Source of the DNA: an uncultured Flavobacteriales bacterium
Lineage (GTDB): Bacteria; Bacteroidota; Bacteroidia; Flavobacteriales; Vicingaceae
Reading direction: 5' to 3'
Length of the DNA: 5,271 nt
Assembly: GCA_946886085.1 (NCBI GenBank)
Contig: CAMPHX010000125.1
Span: 1-5,271, forward strand
In this document: piece after piece, positions 1-5,031 of the stretch
How the letters are laid out: every line of letters begins with the position of its first letter
How positions within the stretch are numbered: the first letter of the stretch is position 1
Notes under the pieces: generated by a model
What the model was told of the DNA's origin: nothing
Seen by the model: only the letters and a program-made list of their open reading frames with translations
Database searches by the model: none
Program-made: the position numbers and the translations under genes

Positions 1-2891
1 GTATTACTTACCATTTGATCTTCAATGATTTTCTGACCTAAGGCATTGTAAACAGATACCATATAATTTTGTTCTATATCATCAAACTCTATTACTGTAA
101 CTTCGTTAGCTTTATAAATAGCTATTTGTTGTTCCATTCCATTAACAGTATTAGTTGCTTGATTTGACAACCTTAATGAAAAACGTTCTCCTGTTTCATA
201 TTCATCTATCATTACTTCTACTTCATTCATTGAAGTTAAATCATATACTTTACCTGTTTTGGTATCTGTTAACTCCATTACTTTATACTCATGAGCAAAT
301 TCCTCAAAATTAATAGCTTCAATGATATAGTTTCCAGAAACCCCAACCTCAACAGCTATAGGCAACACTACTTCATCATTATAATTGAATGAATTAATAA
401 CTAATTTTTTATTGTTATTCACACTATAGCTATAAATACTTGGTGCTTCCAGCACTCTACTTGGCAAAAAGGTTCCGTCATGATAATCATGATTAAGAGA
501 AGCTAAATTGTTTAATCTTAATTTTAAAACATGATTATAAGGAGATTTTACACTCTTCACTTTTAATTGTACTTCAGTAAAAACATAAGGTTCTTCTGAT
601 AACTCTCCATTAGTTCTGTAAAATGTACTTGAAGCACTACCCGCCTTAGACGATTCCATAAAGGTTAATGTACCAGCTCCAACACTTTCTACCCAAAATC
701 CTTGGTTTGGAGGTATGTAACCTGTAGTTGAAGCATCATACGTGCCATTATTGGTATTCCAAATATAGAAAGTACCATTTAATGTAGGTCTTGATAGATT
801 TGCCCAATTAATCCATGATTGATAGGGGTTTCCTACTAAATTCCAAGAATTAGCAACCGGCATAGGAATATTTCCAAAATTAGGTGTCCCTCTGGTATCA
901 AAAGTTTTTGCCTCCCAAACGGAATTAGAATCTTCTAACCAAATTTCAAAACCTCTAGCTGGTGTCAGTGCTTGGGTAGTGTCTGTCACAGTAACAAAAC
1001 TTTGCGTATTCTCATCATAATAATATACCGACTGAAATGAAATGGCATTACCATCTACTCCACCTACCCCTGACATATATATTTCTGTTACAGTTCCTGT
1101 AGGGTCTGAATCCCATTCTCCTAAAGTGGCATTAGACACCGGAGAGCTCAAATCTCCCCACCCTGCATTTCTCTGAGAGATATGACGTTGAGCAATAAAA
1201 GTACCGGTAAATCCACCTGATGTATTTAAAAGTATTGCCGTACTCGTTGCATCAGATTTAAATGTAAAAGTTCCTCCTATATTGTTTAAAGGTCCATTAG
1301 GTACTTGTATAACATTATTTACTATAAAACTACCGGATTGAACATTTACTCCGTTTGAATTATTAATAATTAATACAGAAAATTGTACAGCAGATGTAGC
1401 ATTATTTTGCATATTTTGAGCTACAGTTCCATTAAAAGTAATGGTTTTATTAACGAAGCTTCCTGTTGCGTTGACAACCAAATCTCCTTTAATGTTAAAA
1501 GCACCTGTTTGTATTGTATTTAAAGTACCATCTATTGTTATAGTATTCACATTTGTAGTGGTAGTTGCTGAAACCGTGTGTCCTAACGAAATGGTAACAT
1601 CATCAGCAGCTCCGGGAATACACCCACAACTCCATGTGCTTGTGTTGTTCCAACCTCCTGTGGCTACAGAAACTATTGCCGAACTAGCTCCGGATGCTAA
1701 GGTGTAATAATCACCATCTGCAAATGAAACACCGGTAAAAGTTACTATCCCCCCCACATCACTAAAAGGGCCGTAGGTAACTACCCCTCCATCATTAAAC
1801 ACCCCATTATTTGACTCTACTAGTAAATAATAACCTCCCGCTCCAGGTAATGTTAAGCCGGATACATCATAAGCCACATCTACAATATTGGTAGTACCTG
1901 TTACATCTATTCTCCAAGTTCTGGTTAAACGAGCTCCTCCCGCAATGCTCGCAGGAATATCATTAGTTACATTAGACAACCCAACATTGTCATGACCTGA
2001 AATAACATAATCTCCATTATTTAAGGAAGCTGCTGAAAGCTGAACAATTCCTCTACCTTGAGCAGCTAAATTATTACCATCAGCTTCTTGACCAATACCA
2101 ATAACACCAAAACGATGCGTTAACCCGCCATCAAAAGCATACATATCATTAGCAATGGCTATATTAAATTTAGAAGATAAATAATTATCTACTATGTTAC
2201 GTTGTGCCGAATTCAATGCCGTATTATATAAAATTACTTCTCCCATATCGCCATCAAATGGAAAAGTATTAGTTGATGATGCTCCAACAGTATTCATCAA
2301 GTTACCGGTAGGAACACCATTAGCACCTACTCTTGAGCCTACCGAAGCTCCATTTTTATAACTATCAAAAGTTTGAGCAGTACCGTCCCACACAGAAGAT
2401 GTTATTTGAAAAGCTGAAGAATTTGTTGTTATATTGTCTATAACAGCACTCGATGCATCTCGAACATAATACCTTATATCTCCTTGCCTACGATATGTTC
2501 CATAAAAATTTCCCTGATCAAACTCTCCAACATACAATACACCAACATGATTTGGTCTATACCCATTATATACTACATACTGTGTATTTTCAGTAGCATT
2601 TAAGGCGGCAATTCCTCCTCTTCTTAGCCAATCAGCGCCATCAAAACGAAGTCCATTAAACCCATAATAAGTTACAATACTTGGTTGGTTGGTAGAAGTT
2701 CCTTGTGTAAAATCATTACCATTCCCGGATTGATCCAGCCAAGTAGCAATATTAGGATGAGTTGCTGTAGTTACTGTATTTCCATCTAACCAAACTACAT
2801 TGTTAGAGGAGTTACCAACTCCACCGGGACCGGTTTGTGCTATTAATGAAAGAGAACCAGTAAGGAGCAAAACAGTAAATAGATTTTTCAT
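1..2891 (-). CDS. Secreted LamG-like surface protein with type IX secretion sorting domain (3' end cut by window)
   Basis: One frame stays open from the ATG at 2891 to the window edge: 963 codons, with no in-frame stop found when read codon by codon. Residues 1-19 (MKNLFTVLLLTGSLSLIAQ) form a signal peptide. Residues 30-245 resemble a concanavalin/LamG-like domain of Bacteroidota surface proteins (WLDG at 34, WLDQSGNGNDF at 51, GLRFDG at 80, DGDMGEVILYN at 213). A second beta-rich module covers about 255-400 (HRFGVIGIGQEADG at 259, GDYVISGHDN at 293). WSCGC at 420-424 opens a repetitive beta-solenoid-like stretch to about 560. Then come QRHISQ at 568, WNLVGNPY at 683 and PPNQGFWVES at 727, typical of large type IX-exported proteins. 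The last visible part (VSVYNALGQKI, 945-955) matches the middle of a type A sorting domain, so perhaps 30-45 residues are missing. It is probably exported through the Por machinery and attached to, or released from, the cell surface. Adhesion or glycan binding is inferred; no catalytic motif is seen. Confidence 0.88.
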   Translation of the reverse strand, partial: MKNLFTVLLLTGSLSLIAQTGPGGVGNSSNNVVWLDGNTVTTATHPNIATWLDQSGNGNDFTQGTSTNQPSIVTYYGFNGLRFDGADWLRRGGIAALNATENTQYVVYNGYRPNHVGVLYVGEFDQGNFYGTYRRQGDIRYYVRDASSAVIDNITTNSSAFQITSSVWDGTAQTFDSYKNGASVGSRVGANGVPTGNLMNTVGASSTNTFPFDGDMGEVILYNTALNSAQRNIVDNYLSSKFNIAIANDMYAFDGGLTHRFGVIGIGQEADGNNLAAQGRGIVQLSAASLNNGDYVISGHDNVGLSNVTNDIPASIAGGARLTRTWRIDVTGTTNIVDVAYDVSGLTLPGAGGYYLLVESNNGVFNDGGVVTYGPFSDVGGIVTFTGVSFADGDYYTLASGASSAIVSVATGGWNNTSTWSCGCIPGAADDVTISLGHTVSATTTTNVNTITIDGTLNTIQTGAFNIKGDLVVNATGSFVNKTITFNGTVAQNMQNNATSAVQFSVLIINNSNGVNVQSGSFIVNNVIQVPNGPLNNIGGTFTFKSDATSTAILLNTSGGFTGTFIAQRHISQRNAGWGDLSSPVSNATLGEWDSDPTGTVTEIYMSGVGGVDGNAISFQSVYYYDENTQSFVTVTDTTQALTPARGFEIWLEDSNSVWEAKTFDTRGTPNFGNIPMPVANSWNLVGNPYQSWINWANLSRPTLNGTFYIWNTNNGTYDASTTGYIPPNQGFWVESVGAGTLTFMESSKAGSASSTFYRTNGELSEEPYVFTEVQLKVKSVKSPYNHVLKLRLNNLASLNHDYHDGTFLPSRVLEAPSIYSYSVNNNKKLVINSFNYNDEVVLPIAVEVGVSGNYIIEAINFEEFAHEYKVMELTDTKTGKVYDLTSMNEVEVMIDEYETGERFSLRLSNQATNTVNGMEQQIAIYKANEVTVIEFDDIEQNYMVSVYNALGQKIIEDQMVSN

Positions 2892-2926
2892 ATATTTATG
2901 GTTTAATAATTATGTCTGTTGTAACG

Positions 2927-2957
2927 CAAATCTAAGCTAAAAGGTTGTATGTTTGAA
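2927..2957 (-). promoter_or_regulatory. Bacteroidota-type promoter of the surface protein gene
   Basis: Read on the minus strand, TAGATTTGC (2934-2926) is an exact match to the Bacteroidota -7 consensus TAnnTTTG. A weak -33 element, TTC in place of TTG, lies at 2957-2955 with 20 bp between the two, within the usual range. Transcription would start near 2920, giving a leader of roughly 30 bases that is AT-rich and has no Shine-Dalgarno sequence before the ATG at 2891, as is common in this phylum. The surface protein gene therefore probably has its own transcript rather than depending on the genes upstream. Confidence 0.6.
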
Positions 2958-2999
2958 CTCTTTTTATTAGTTTTTTTGAAATTTACGTATTGTTACGGA

Positions 3000-3021
3000 T
3001 AAGTATTGGTAAAAATACTTA
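3000..3021. repeat. Perfect 8-bp inverted repeat upstream of the surface protein promoter
   Basis: TAAGTATT (3000-3007) and AATACTTA (3014-3021) are perfect reverse complements around a 6-base spacer, GGTAAA. The element is about 40 bp upstream of the predicted -33 box and does not share the arm sequences of the neighbouring cassette. No T run follows on either strand, so a terminator is unlikely. An operator for a dimeric regulator is possible, but a chance palindrome in AT-rich DNA is also possible. Confidence 0.4.
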
Positions 3022-3048
3022 GGGGTTACACCTTTTGTTCGGAATTTT

Positions 3049-3235
3049 ATTGCGAAGCCAATCCTGTCCGTCATTGCTGATTCCTGACCATCATTGCGAA
3101 CGACCATAGGGAGTGAAACAATCTTTCATTTGATTAGACAGATTGCTTCGCTTCACTATATGATGACGGTAACATTAGACAGATTGCTTCGTTCGTTTCC
3201 TCTCTCGCAATGAGGATAACGATGAGCAATAACGG
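3049..3235. repeat. Composite palindromic repeat cassette L
   Basis: This gene-free stretch is made of degenerate and good copies of the arms TCATTGCGAG and CGAAGCAATCTG in both orientations. Left-type arms are at 3049-3064 (degenerate), 3071-3077 and 3091-3099. The last pairs perfectly with TCGCAATGA at 3205-3213. An inner imperfect hairpin joins AGTGAAACAATCT (3112-3124) to the reverse complement of 3140-3157, with a bulge of about 5 bases on the longer arm. An exact 18-bp direct repeat, ATTAGACAGATTGCTTCG, occurs at 3133-3150 and 3174-3191, a period of 41 bp. Positions 3174-3224 match 3661-3710 of cassette R at about 90 percent in the same orientation. The cassette ends a few bases from the stop codon of the GIY-YIG gene. 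Confidence 0.85.
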
Positions 3236-3240
3236 TAAGA

Positions 3241-3531
3241 TTATAAATCATCAAACAAATCCTTCCATTCTGGATTAAATGCATTGATTAAATCCAATTT
3301 CTTTTGTCGGGAACCTGCTTTTAATTGCTTTTCTCTTGCTATGGCTTCTTCTATTGAGCTATAATATTCATAATAAACCAATTTGTTCAAATTGTATTTT
3401 GCAGAAAAGCTGGTTTTGAAATGTTTGATTTTGTGTTGGTAAACTCTGTCCTTTAAATCACTGGTAACACCAATGTACAAAACCTCATTATTTTTGTTAG
3501 TTATGATATAAATACATCCACCTCTTTCCAT
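3241..3531 (-). CDS. Small single-domain GIY-YIG endonuclease family protein
   Basis: This 96-residue protein is a nearly bare GIY-YIG nuclease domain. The first motif is C-I-Y-I at residues 6-9 and the second is L-Y-I-G at 18-21. The conserved Arg follows at R29 (DLKDR), then His33, the metal-binding Glu as E67 in AREKQLKAGSRQKK, and Asn83 in the C-terminal LINAFNPEWKDL. All expected catalytic positions are present and the length suits the stand-alone UPF0213/YhbQ-like group, so it is probably intact. The family cleaves DNA with a divalent metal, but the cellular role of the stand-alone members is poorly defined. No extra DNA-binding domain is visible, unlike homing enzymes or UvrC. The start at 3531 puts the first motif near the N-terminus, as is usual; no Shine-Dalgarno sequence is seen. 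The gene is bracketed by cassettes L and R in direct orientation, and its stop is within about 6 bases of cassette L. Confidence 0.9.
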   Translation of the reverse strand: MERGGCIYIITNKNNEVLYIGVTSDLKDRVYQHKIKHFKTSFSAKYNLNKLVYYEYYSSIEEAIAREKQLKAGSRQKKLDLINAFNPEWKDLFDDL

Positions 3532-3600
3532 AGAGCTAAACTAGTATTTTTTTATTTATGTTATTGATAAGCTAATTATGACCGTCATTGCTCCTCACTT

Positions 3601-3702
3601 CCGTCATTGCGAGGTTTTGGGTAGGCTTATGTGTGGGAAACCGAAGTAATCTGTTTTTAGATTAAACAGATTGCTTCGTTCGTACCTCTCTCGCAATGAC
3701 GG
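3601..3702. repeat. Long two-tier hairpin within cassette R
   Basis: The outer arms CCGTCATTGCGAG (3601-3613) and CTCGCAATGACGG (3690-3702) are perfect 13-bp reverse complements. The inner arms 3642-3656 and 3664-3678 pair at 14 of 15 positions, the exception being T3647, around a 7-base loop. The two paired tiers are separated by unpaired stretches of 28 bases on the left and 11 on the right. This is the best preserved palindrome in the window. A transcript from the glycosyltransferase could fold it, but no U run follows on the minus strand, so intrinsic termination is not clearly indicated. Confidence 0.85.
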
Positions 3703-3712
3703 TAACGATGGG

Positions 3713-3773
3713 CAGATTGCTTCGTGGAGTTTACCTGAGTAAACCGAAGGGTTGCACTCCTCTCGCAATGACG
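3713..3773. repeat. Repeat unit with a nested hairpin insert, directly after the glycosyltransferase
   Basis: The unit runs from the arm CAGATTGCTTCG (3713-3724) to the arm CTCGCAATGACG (3762-3773). Between them lies a separate small palindrome: GTTTAC (3729-3734), loop CTGA, GTAAAC (3739-3744), enclosed by GGAGT (3726-3730, overlapping the stem by two bases) and ACTCC (3756-3760). The other units in the window lack this inner hairpin. As a transcribed structure just past the stop codon at 3781 it could protect or end the mRNA; that is inference. Confidence 0.65.
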
Positions 3774-3780
3774 ATAACGA

Positions 3781-5031
3781 CTAAACAGACTTATAAATCT
3801 CCATCACTCGCTTATAAAAAGCTGCTTTACCGTATTGACTAATCACATCTTCTCTTAGTTGTTCTTTATTGTAATTGTTATACTCACGGTACATCTTAAG
3901 TAAAGCTTGAGCTAATTCTTCTACATTTTTAGGTTGTACCAATATTCCGTTACTATCGTTAACAATACATTCAGGACCTCCACAATAGGTAGAAATAACA
4001 GGAACTCCCCTAGAAAGTGCCTCTATTAAAACCACTCCAAATGTCTCGTAGTGGCTGGGTAAAACAAATACATCACAATCATCTAACTGAGTAATTACTT
4101 GTTCTCTGTTAATGTACCCTATTAACTTAATTTTTTGGTTAAGCTTAAATTGAGTAACCATGTACTCTAATTTTTCTTTTAACTCACCATCACCTGCTAT
4201 TACTAATTCTACATCTTCCACATTTTCAAAAGCTATATTAAATGCGTTTATCAATTCTGCTTGACCTTTGAGTGGTATCAAATTAGCTATATTTAAAAAC
4301 CGAACAATTTTTCGTTGCCTCTTGACATCTAGTAATTGCTTATTCTCAATATAGCTATCCAATACATTGGGCAACCATATTATTTTATTCTCTGATAAAG
4401 AAAATCGCTTGGTAAGTTGTTGAATCAATACTGGACTAACTGCATATAAATTGACTGATAAAGAAAATGCTTTTTCCAATTGTTGATTCAATTCTGAAGA
4501 TACCTCTCCCATTATATATTGAGAACTGTGCTCCGTTATTACATAAGGTATATTGTACTTTTTATTTAAATCAATGGTTAATAATCCTGCATAAATCATA
4601 TTATGAGCATGTATTACATCCGGTTTACCATAGTTATTAATATATGCCTGTAATGCAAGGTCACCATATTTTAACCACATTTCATACTTACTCAATGGCA
4701 AATTACTCTTTTTAGTTCCCCAAAAACCATCGCAACGAAGTACATCAATTTGATCTTTTATTTCATAGTGTAATGCCGACTGAAATGGAGTAAACGTTTT
4801 CTTGAATAAAGTAGTTAGTAATGCTATACTACTTAAATTTTTAGTGTGTTTATTATTTTTGCCTAACAACGCATTTATCAAACTCGAAAAAGAATATTTA
4901 AAAGTAAAGGATAACACTCCTACTTGATGTCCGTTTTGTTGTAATATCTTAGCTTGATCGTGTTGAAAGATACCTGCCATGGGAGCATGATTAGGAACAT
5001 ATTCTTCTGACGGTATAATGAGGATGTGCAT
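3781..5031 (-). CDS. GT4-family (GT-B fold) glycosyltransferase
   Basis: This complete 416-residue protein has the usual length and layout of a retaining GT4 transferase, which moves a sugar from a nucleotide sugar to a growing glycan at the cytoplasmic membrane face. The N-terminal Rossmann half opens with MHILIIPSEEYVPN and contains PDVIHAH (137-143), VITEHSS (164-170) and YAVSP (196-200). The C-terminal donor-binding half begins near 243 and shows NLIPLKG (250-256), with Lys255 at the position that usually contacts donor phosphate, then VIAGDGEL (277-284) and the E-x7-E signature E329-TFGVVLI-E337, followed by GGPE (351-354). There is no signal peptide and no obvious membrane segment. The ATG at 5031 lies one base after the stop of the upstream gene, so the two are almost certainly co-transcribed and probably translationally coupled. 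The context suggests synthesis of a surface polysaccharide or glycolipid. Donor and acceptor sugars cannot be read from the sequence. Confidence 0.93.
   Translation of the reverse strand: MHILIIPSEEYVPNHAPMAGIFQHDQAKILQQNGHQVGVLSFTFKYSFSSLINALLGKNNKHTKNLSSIALLTTLFKKTFTPFQSALHYEIKDQIDVLRCDGFWGTKKSNLPLSKYEMWLKYGDLALQAYINNYGKPDVIHAHNMIYAGLLTIDLNKKYNIPYVITEHSSQYIMGEVSSELNQQLEKAFSLSVNLYAVSPVLIQQLTKRFSLSENKIIWLPNVLDSYIENKQLLDVKRQRKIVRFLNIANLIPLKGQAELINAFNIAFENVEDVELVIAGDGELKEKLEYMVTQFKLNQKIKLIGYINREQVITQLDDCDVFVLPSHYETFGVVLIEALSRGVPVISTYCGGPECIVNDSNGILVQPKNVEELAQALLKMYREYNNYNKEQLREDVISQYGKAAFYKRVMEIYKSV

Follow-up and report, generated by a model that had tools for sequence, protein, structure and literature searches.

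Ssn proteins, as Chenal et al. reportedly found in 2025, are site-specific GIY-YIG nucleases that are said to cut single-stranded genomic repeats and to modulate transformation in Neisseria; we know of no mobile unit of gene plus repeat from that work. In the accessible part of the study that describes them, RAYT genes are flanked by two inverted REPs with the head GT(A/G)G, the trees of enzyme and repeat in these REPtrons agree, and copies of the repeat without the gene are found elsewhere (Nunvar et al. 2010, PMC2817692). The CGTC super-family of REPs, to judge from the accessible text of the 2013 survey, apparently lacks a dedicated transposase; its palindromes were found in five phyla, Bacteroidetes among those reported, and consist of an unpaired head CGTC, often TGTC or CCTC, at one end, a stem of 8-9 bp starting with AT, a loop of 4-5 and a CCA-like tail (PMC3733652). 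In the same text, these REPs form dimers and are intergenic, mostly located downstream of genes, the CGTC-1 REPs are equated with dRS3 of Neisseriae, and the string 'GIY' does not occur (Di Nocera et al. 2013, PMC3733652). Among the titles and abstract openings of open-licence papers that were searched, none ties GIY-YIG proteins to REPs, which proves no absence of such a link.

The stretch of DNA analysed here (the window) comprises 5,271 nucleotides from an uncultured Flavobacteriales bacterium and contains, between the genes for a glycosyltransferase and a large protein, a block of ~730 bp with the order half repeats, left hairpin cassette, GIY-YIG nuclease gene, right hairpin cassette and one further repeat unit (Table 1). 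This block probably represents a relative of the CGTC super-family that is built like a REPtron: a minimal GIY-YIG nuclease gene lies between cognate REP-like units, and the whole was inserted between the two flanking genes. The large protein, which may by likeness be a type IX secretion substrate, had no match in searches against Pfam and NCBIfam, and a search of 2900-3800 against Rfam at the gathering threshold returned no family.

Table 1. Features of the window (positions count from its first nucleotide)
Feature	Positions	Strand	Evidence
Large-protein gene, flanking, open at window edge	3..2891	-	no Pfam/NCBIfam match
Degenerate half units (TTATTGCGAAGCCAATC stretch; CGTCATTGC at 3069)	3045..3088	+	unit search
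Approximate extent of the putatively inserted block (as in the initial annotation; ends approximate)	3049..3780		spacing excess vs L321/L322
Left cassette: pair of facing REP-like units, 3089-3123 (+, decayed head, CATC) and 3182-3215 (-, CCTC head)	3089..3215		fold z -2.0
Small GIY-YIG nuclease gene, 96 aa, single minimal GIY-YIG domain	3241..3531	-	Pfam PF01541 2.5e-17
Half unit CGTCATTGCT between gene and right cassette	3583..3592	+	unit search
Right cassette: REP dimer without gene, 3602-3651 (+) and 3669-3701 (-), CGTC heads outward on both	3602..3701		fold z -8.5
Extra REP-like unit, CGTC head, right of right cassette	3715..3773	-	unit search
Family 4 glycosyltransferase gene, flanking	3781..5031	-	Pfam PF00534 1.7e-36

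Exact matches to the arm TCATTGCGAG or to its complement are located at 3204, 3604, 3690 and 3762 and are absent from the rest of the window; CAGATTGCTTCG was found at 3139, 3180, 3667 and 3713 in the searched stretch 3001-3800. The initial annotation had described a nuclease gene between two hairpin cassettes, which agrees with the 96-residue reading frame and the cassette on either side of it, and had matched 3174-3224 to 3661-3710 at about 90 percent, which corresponds to 46 identical columns out of 51. Its description of the cassettes as direct repeats holds in part: the gene flanks match in direct orientation (local score 63, maximum of 300 shuffles 24), but they also match as inverted repeats (score 33), and each cassette is itself palindromic. 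A tandem unit with a period of about 487 bp, also suggested there, finds no support in this clade, since the window contains one gene only; near-identical tandems of gene plus spacer do occur in other GIY-YIG groups. The unit at 3715-3773 and several half units, which lie within the same block, had not been named. As single-stranded DNA, the right cassette folds with -27.1 kcal/mol and none of 200 shuffled sequences folds as well, whereas the left cassette is eroded and is equalled by 6 of 200.

Heads of the CGTC type are present at 3602 (+), 3701 (-) and 3773 (-) as CGTC and at 3215 (-) as CCTC, and the unit at 3089 has CATC. The window units resemble CGTC REPs in their heads, in the stem that starts with AT, in the formation of dimers and in the intergenic location; unlike the published format with a stem of 8-9 bp, a loop of 4-5 and a tail, they have a 5-bp stem (ATTGC/GCAAT) and a longer loop. 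Because of this difference in stem and loop, we file the window repeats as an offshoot rather than as a member of one of the four published CGTC families. The layout, a gene between two inverted REPs, is that of a REPtron, each side being a dimer in the window.

The 96-residue protein belongs to the GIY-YIG superfamily on the basis of the Pfam domain, conserved residues and fold matches. In an alignment of 52 sequences, 20 columns are invariant, Y8, Y19, G21, R29, H33 and E67 among these; Y8, Y19, R29 and E67 are presumably the catalytic residues. The AlphaFold model (pLDDT 95.7) consists of one bare GIY-YIG domain, and the nearest solved folds are UPF0213 (Foldseek E 1.4e-3), Slx1 and the N-domain of UvrC, with no solved fold at E < 0.001; the fold is thus held in common with UPF0213/YhbQ and UvrC GIY-YIG proteins. 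All profile matches in Pfam and NCBIfam are of the GIY-YIG type, the single NCBIfam match, to a group I intron endonuclease model, being below the cut-off. As with RAYT, a small gene lies between inverted head-bearing REPs, the enzyme agrees with its repeat, and copies without the gene exist, but the enzyme is a GIY-YIG nuclease and not a tyrosine transposase of the IS200/IS605 type, and the head is GTC(A) and not GTAG or GTGG. Since the enzyme class differs, the block would work like a REPtron without being one by definition.

One genome scan yielded 216 confirmed relatives of the nuclease, of which the best 80 were analysed. An arm with at most one mismatch lies within 500 bp of the gene in 79 of these 80 relatives, which are not all independent (L035/L046/L066 and L039/L044/L062 are orthologous sets), and on both sides in 65, compared to 7 of 80 for the reversed patterns; exact arms are found in 64 of the best 80, and reversed exact arms in none. 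The sole exception is L026, where one flank is only 20 bases long and the other has no arm. In the same best 80 of 216, arm density is 7.49/kb near the gene versus 0.42/kb far from it, an enrichment of about 18-fold. Clustering by nearest neighbour distributes 77 loci (of 81, window included) over 61 clusters. In 9 of 10 loci chosen for simple layout, the gene is located inside one hairpin, with the heads outward and a unit of 363-391 bp. These counts demonstrate, at the level of sequence, the association of gene and repeat. The comparison with REPs and RAYT made in the initial annotation, and its suggestion of a nuclease-linked repeat family, find good support in these 79 of the best 80 relatives and in the co-diversification of repeats and protein and the empty sites described below; a lack of arm enrichment near GIY-YIG genes had been named there as an observation that would count against this family, and the arms proved enriched.

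Seven loci (L025, L042, L052, L054, L055, L058 and L075) combine the gene with the repeat type seen in the window, although their contigs are assigned to metagenome bins of Pseudomonadota, Clostridiales or Spirochaetales, which may reflect transfer or mis-binning. At L014 (G002 contig 14, about 313-336 kb) and L073, dense clusters of repeat units surround the nuclease gene beside restriction-modification-like genes, which were named from reading the translations.

Genome-wide arm counts were obtained for 12 host genomes of relatives. Exact copies of TCATTGCGAG range from 4 to 418 per genome, and the count is at least twice that of the reversed control in 10 of the 12 (for example, 418 vs 8 and 71 vs 3). 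In the whole genome of the nearest relative, G001, there are 7 exact arms, three of them at the locus, vs 4 in the reversed control, and in G006, 4 vs 5, with two of the four flanking the gene; a large dispersed family is therefore not general. The CGTC-1-type unit has 77 copies in G175 and 19 in G170, which are hosts of a related GIY clade, and was found in three of four other genomes searched (5, 14 and 3 copies; none in G243), the reversed control being 0 throughout. On contig 24 of G170 and contig 6 of G175, an intact GIY gene is enclosed by a pair of these units, 444 bp apart. On contig 30 of G175, at about 34386-34775, there is a second REP-flanked GIY-YIG copy, which is broken by a stop, so that gene-bearing units can be multicopy and decay.

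The same observations bear on the possibility that the hairpins merely terminate transcription, or are of a generic intergenic kind and flank a small gene by chance. Several small GIY genes indeed have only terminator-like hairpins ending in runs of A and T; however, the sequences in question are specific and head-tagged, they show the 18-fold local enrichment while the reversed control is flat, the far flanks speak against an equal frequency beside unrelated genes, and dispersed copies exist in G170 and G175 against a control of 0, all of which makes this explanation hardly credible.

A search with PF01541 found 3-17 GIY-YIG genes in each of the 12 whole genomes. Small GIY-YIG paralogues have different flanking inverted repeats, also within one genome (for example, L125 vs L127 in G001 and L129 vs L132 in G005), and several have none or terminator-like ones only. 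When inverted repeats were sought from flank to flank (score at least 15) in 205 distinct small GIY genes, a set weighted towards the window family owing to the first scan, they were present in 67 of the 193 with full flanks, compared to 9 of 351 other ORFs, so that most small GIY genes lack them. Among large GIY genes, which are mostly UvrC, none of the 22 with full flanks (of 38) has a flanking inverted repeat, unlike the window gene. Flank similarity tracks protein identity (Mantel r 0.35, a value reached in 0 of 1000 permutations) in 166 representatives, which were obtained by thinning the 189 genes with usable flanks at 85% identity. Pairs of genes that share motifs account for 23.6% near the gene and 0.3% far from it at 50-60% protein identity, and for 64.5% and 4.8% at 70-85%. 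The pairing of each enzyme with a cognate repeat is thus evident in the sequence comparisons. A GIY-YIG gene that, like a homing endonuclease, repeatedly invaded existing REP dimers moved by something else would explain why the gene occupies the loop of a dimer that is otherwise normal and why, among the weak PADLOC matches of the window, the best is a homing endonuclease profile (3.1e-4); nevertheless, such a passenger is improbable in view of the way repeat sequence follows protein similarity across genomes and of the paralogues that carry different repeats in the same genome.

The repeats of different clades have a head in common. Among all 1024 5-mers, GTCAT is the top head of 8-mers that are common to both flanks in inverted orientation; it ranks first within the window family, with 28 of 54 genes, as well as among the other small GIY genes, with 13 of 112 against a mean of 0.87 per 5-mer. 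When the stem of a hairpin is required to measure 6 bp or more, GTC is second to AAA in the other small GIY genes (27 matches in 17 of 112 genes; far flanks, 4 in 3), and the window family has no GTC-headed hairpin; with 5-bp stems starting with A, GTC is the first of 64 heads in the window family (81 matches, spread over 32 of the 54 genes, vs 3 in the far flanks) and again second after AAA in the others (70 matches in 35 of 112 genes; far, 11). Among 218 small GIY genes, 44 have GTC-headed hairpins, counted in either orientation, on both sides and 84 on either side, compared to 1 and 21 for the control head CTG. A plain count of TGTCA in the flanks shows no clear excess; the GTC head becomes visible only when tied to a shared repeat or hairpin.

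When 214 distinct domains are placed on a tree built with FastTree, the presence of a GTC-headed hairpin on either side (83 of 214) requires 45 changes, compared to a mean of 66 and a minimum of 55 in 300 shuffles; the trait is therefore clustered on the protein tree, yet has often been gained or lost. Among the 22 largest clades, units on both sides occur in 7/7, 4/5, 3/5, 19/67, 2/13, 1/3 and 1/2 members, and in none of the other 15 clades; the clade with 19 of 67 is that of the window, in which 35 of 67 have a 5-bp GTC-headed hairpin on either side. The clade of seven (L340, L358, L350, L351, L269, L260 and L261) mostly conforms to the published CGTC format, e.g., TGTC-ATTCCCGC-GAAG-GCGGGAAT-CCA, although one side of L351 differs; the full format, including the stem of 8-9 bp, is seen in units at L340, L350, L260, L269 and L261. 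The small GIY-YIG genes at L260, L269, L261, L340, L350 and L358 are accompanied by dRS3-like (CGTC-1) or ATCCCGG-type palindromes, and their hosts are Bacteroidota and Pseudomonadota. In Pseudomonadota, 29 small GIY genes were collected (30 loci from 60 genomes), four of which bear a GTC head facing outward on each side and five a flank-to-flank inverted repeat; the small GIY genes of other types in this phylum, presumably UPF0213-like, mostly have no flanking inverted repeat. Tandem arrays of a small GIY-YIG gene plus spacer, with periods of 344-494 bp and about 2 to 5 copies that are 94-99% alike, occur at L112, L133, L142 (G008), L216, L254, L255 and L272, and their clades, as far as they are among those listed, lack two-sided units.

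Empty sites at orthologous loci, for which the initial annotation had advised looking, exist at three sites. For the window site, 46 genomes from the family of G001 were searched, and three besides G001 encode a glycosyltransferase more than 50% identical to that of the window (L320, L321 and L322). In L321 and L322, an orthologue of the large-protein neighbour (61% and 59% identity over 400 residues) directly adjoins the glycosyltransferase gene: the distance from the stop of the latter to the next start is 889 bp in the window vs 141 and 136 bp, an excess of 748-753 bp. The gap in L321 and L322 contains neither an arm nor, with E values up to 10 allowed, a match to GIY-YIG, a single 9-base near-match to an arm in L321 being located inside the next gene; L320 has a different neighbour and no arm.

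For L046, 32 loci were compared (30 of 72 matching genomes, plus L035 and L066), 13 of which were dropped; in the 19 that keep both flanks by the criterion applied, the gene unit is present in three (L046, L035 and L066), the flanks are -10 to 53 bp apart in ten, and six have other content, with repeat-like remnants in one of the latter (L171). In L191, one of the dropped loci, the unit matches and the left flank does not. For L039, 22 of 32 loci (30 of 138 matching genomes, plus L044 and L062) keep both flanks and 10 were dropped; the gene unit is present in four of the 22 (L289, which is L039 itself, L044, L062 and L299), 13 have no match to it, L313 has a hairpin of the same family as the L039 unit without the gene, L292 and L293 start with a hairpin from another family, and L298 retains a degenerate remnant of the unit. 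The presence or absence of the gene together with its repeats at orthologous sites is thus seen directly in these alignments. Since different species are compared, whose flanks are about 64-89% identical (96% in the case of L062), junctions and target duplications are not readable to the base and gain and loss are not strictly separable, and loss could account for part of the pattern. At L291, an otherwise empty site orthologous to L039, a 14-base right end of the unit is present, which looks like the footprint of a deletion or excision.

The gene contexts of the window family also appear more scattered than those of UvrC, in a rough comparison that can only be supportive, UvrC and small GIY genes evolving at different rates and the UvrC set being small (27): pairs with the nearest neighbour in common number 2 of 1273 vs 14 of 48 at 60-70% protein identity, 15 of 341 vs 9 of 20 at 70-80%, and 9 of 11 vs 10 of 10 at 90% or more. 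A neighbour cluster of 8 loci was set aside, as it may stem from repeat-derived reading frames. The main competitor of the REPtron-like reading is a resident nuclease of the Ssn type, which would form a host regulatory pair with the repeats, e.g., tuning the uptake of single-stranded DNA or recombination at repeat sites, and would move nothing, the repeats spreading otherwise. The likeness is a small GIY-YIG nuclease with a cognate genomic repeat, and the 2025 work reportedly concerns enzymes of this class that cleave repeats of the genome in single-stranded form; the difference is that the role reported for Ssn is cutting and modulating transformation, whereas the unit of the window type is read as a mobile gene plus repeat. 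The related GIY clade with repeats of the CGTC-1 type, to which dRS3 of Neisseriae belongs according to the accessible text of the survey (PMC3733652), also speaks for a resident pair. Still, at orthologous sites the unit is found or missing as one block, and its gene contexts are more scattered than those of UvrC, and we regard a purely resident role as rather unlikely.

Under the REPtron-like reading, the nuclease gene with its repeats looks like a very small mobile element with an unusual enzyme. The enzyme would recognise the GTC head together with the folded repeat, probably as single-stranded or extruded DNA, a preference for single strands that we infer, and would nick or cut at the recognised repeat; at intergenic sites, repair or strand exchange would then copy or remove the dimer that lacks the gene and, on occasion, the complete unit with the gene. 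Cleavage of the repeats by the 96-residue enzyme is likely, and it is plausible that the enzyme itself drives their spread.

Should the Ssn work have linked Ssn to CGTC REPs, the pairing would be known already, and the contribution made here would lie in the head that several clades have in common, in how far the trait extends over the protein tree, and in the presence or absence of the unit of gene plus repeat. The present analysis names a candidate enzyme for several types of repeat at once; whether CGTC palindromes are served by an enzyme, and by which, was left open in the accessible text of the 2013 survey (PMC3733652). It also provides matched pairs of enzyme and repeat with differing repeat sequences, as well as empty, gene-bearing and gene-less versions of one site, and short oligonucleotides together with a single small protein for each pair would be enough to test the question. 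More tentatively, as a possibility that we would not yet call probable, small GIY-YIG nucleases may be the dedicated enzymes that the CGTC REP super-family seemed to lack, in which case repeats would spread without a tyrosine or DDE transposase, and a nuclease of ~96 residues with a head-tagged hairpin would represent one of the smallest autonomous mobile units, in Bacteroidota and Pseudomonadota.
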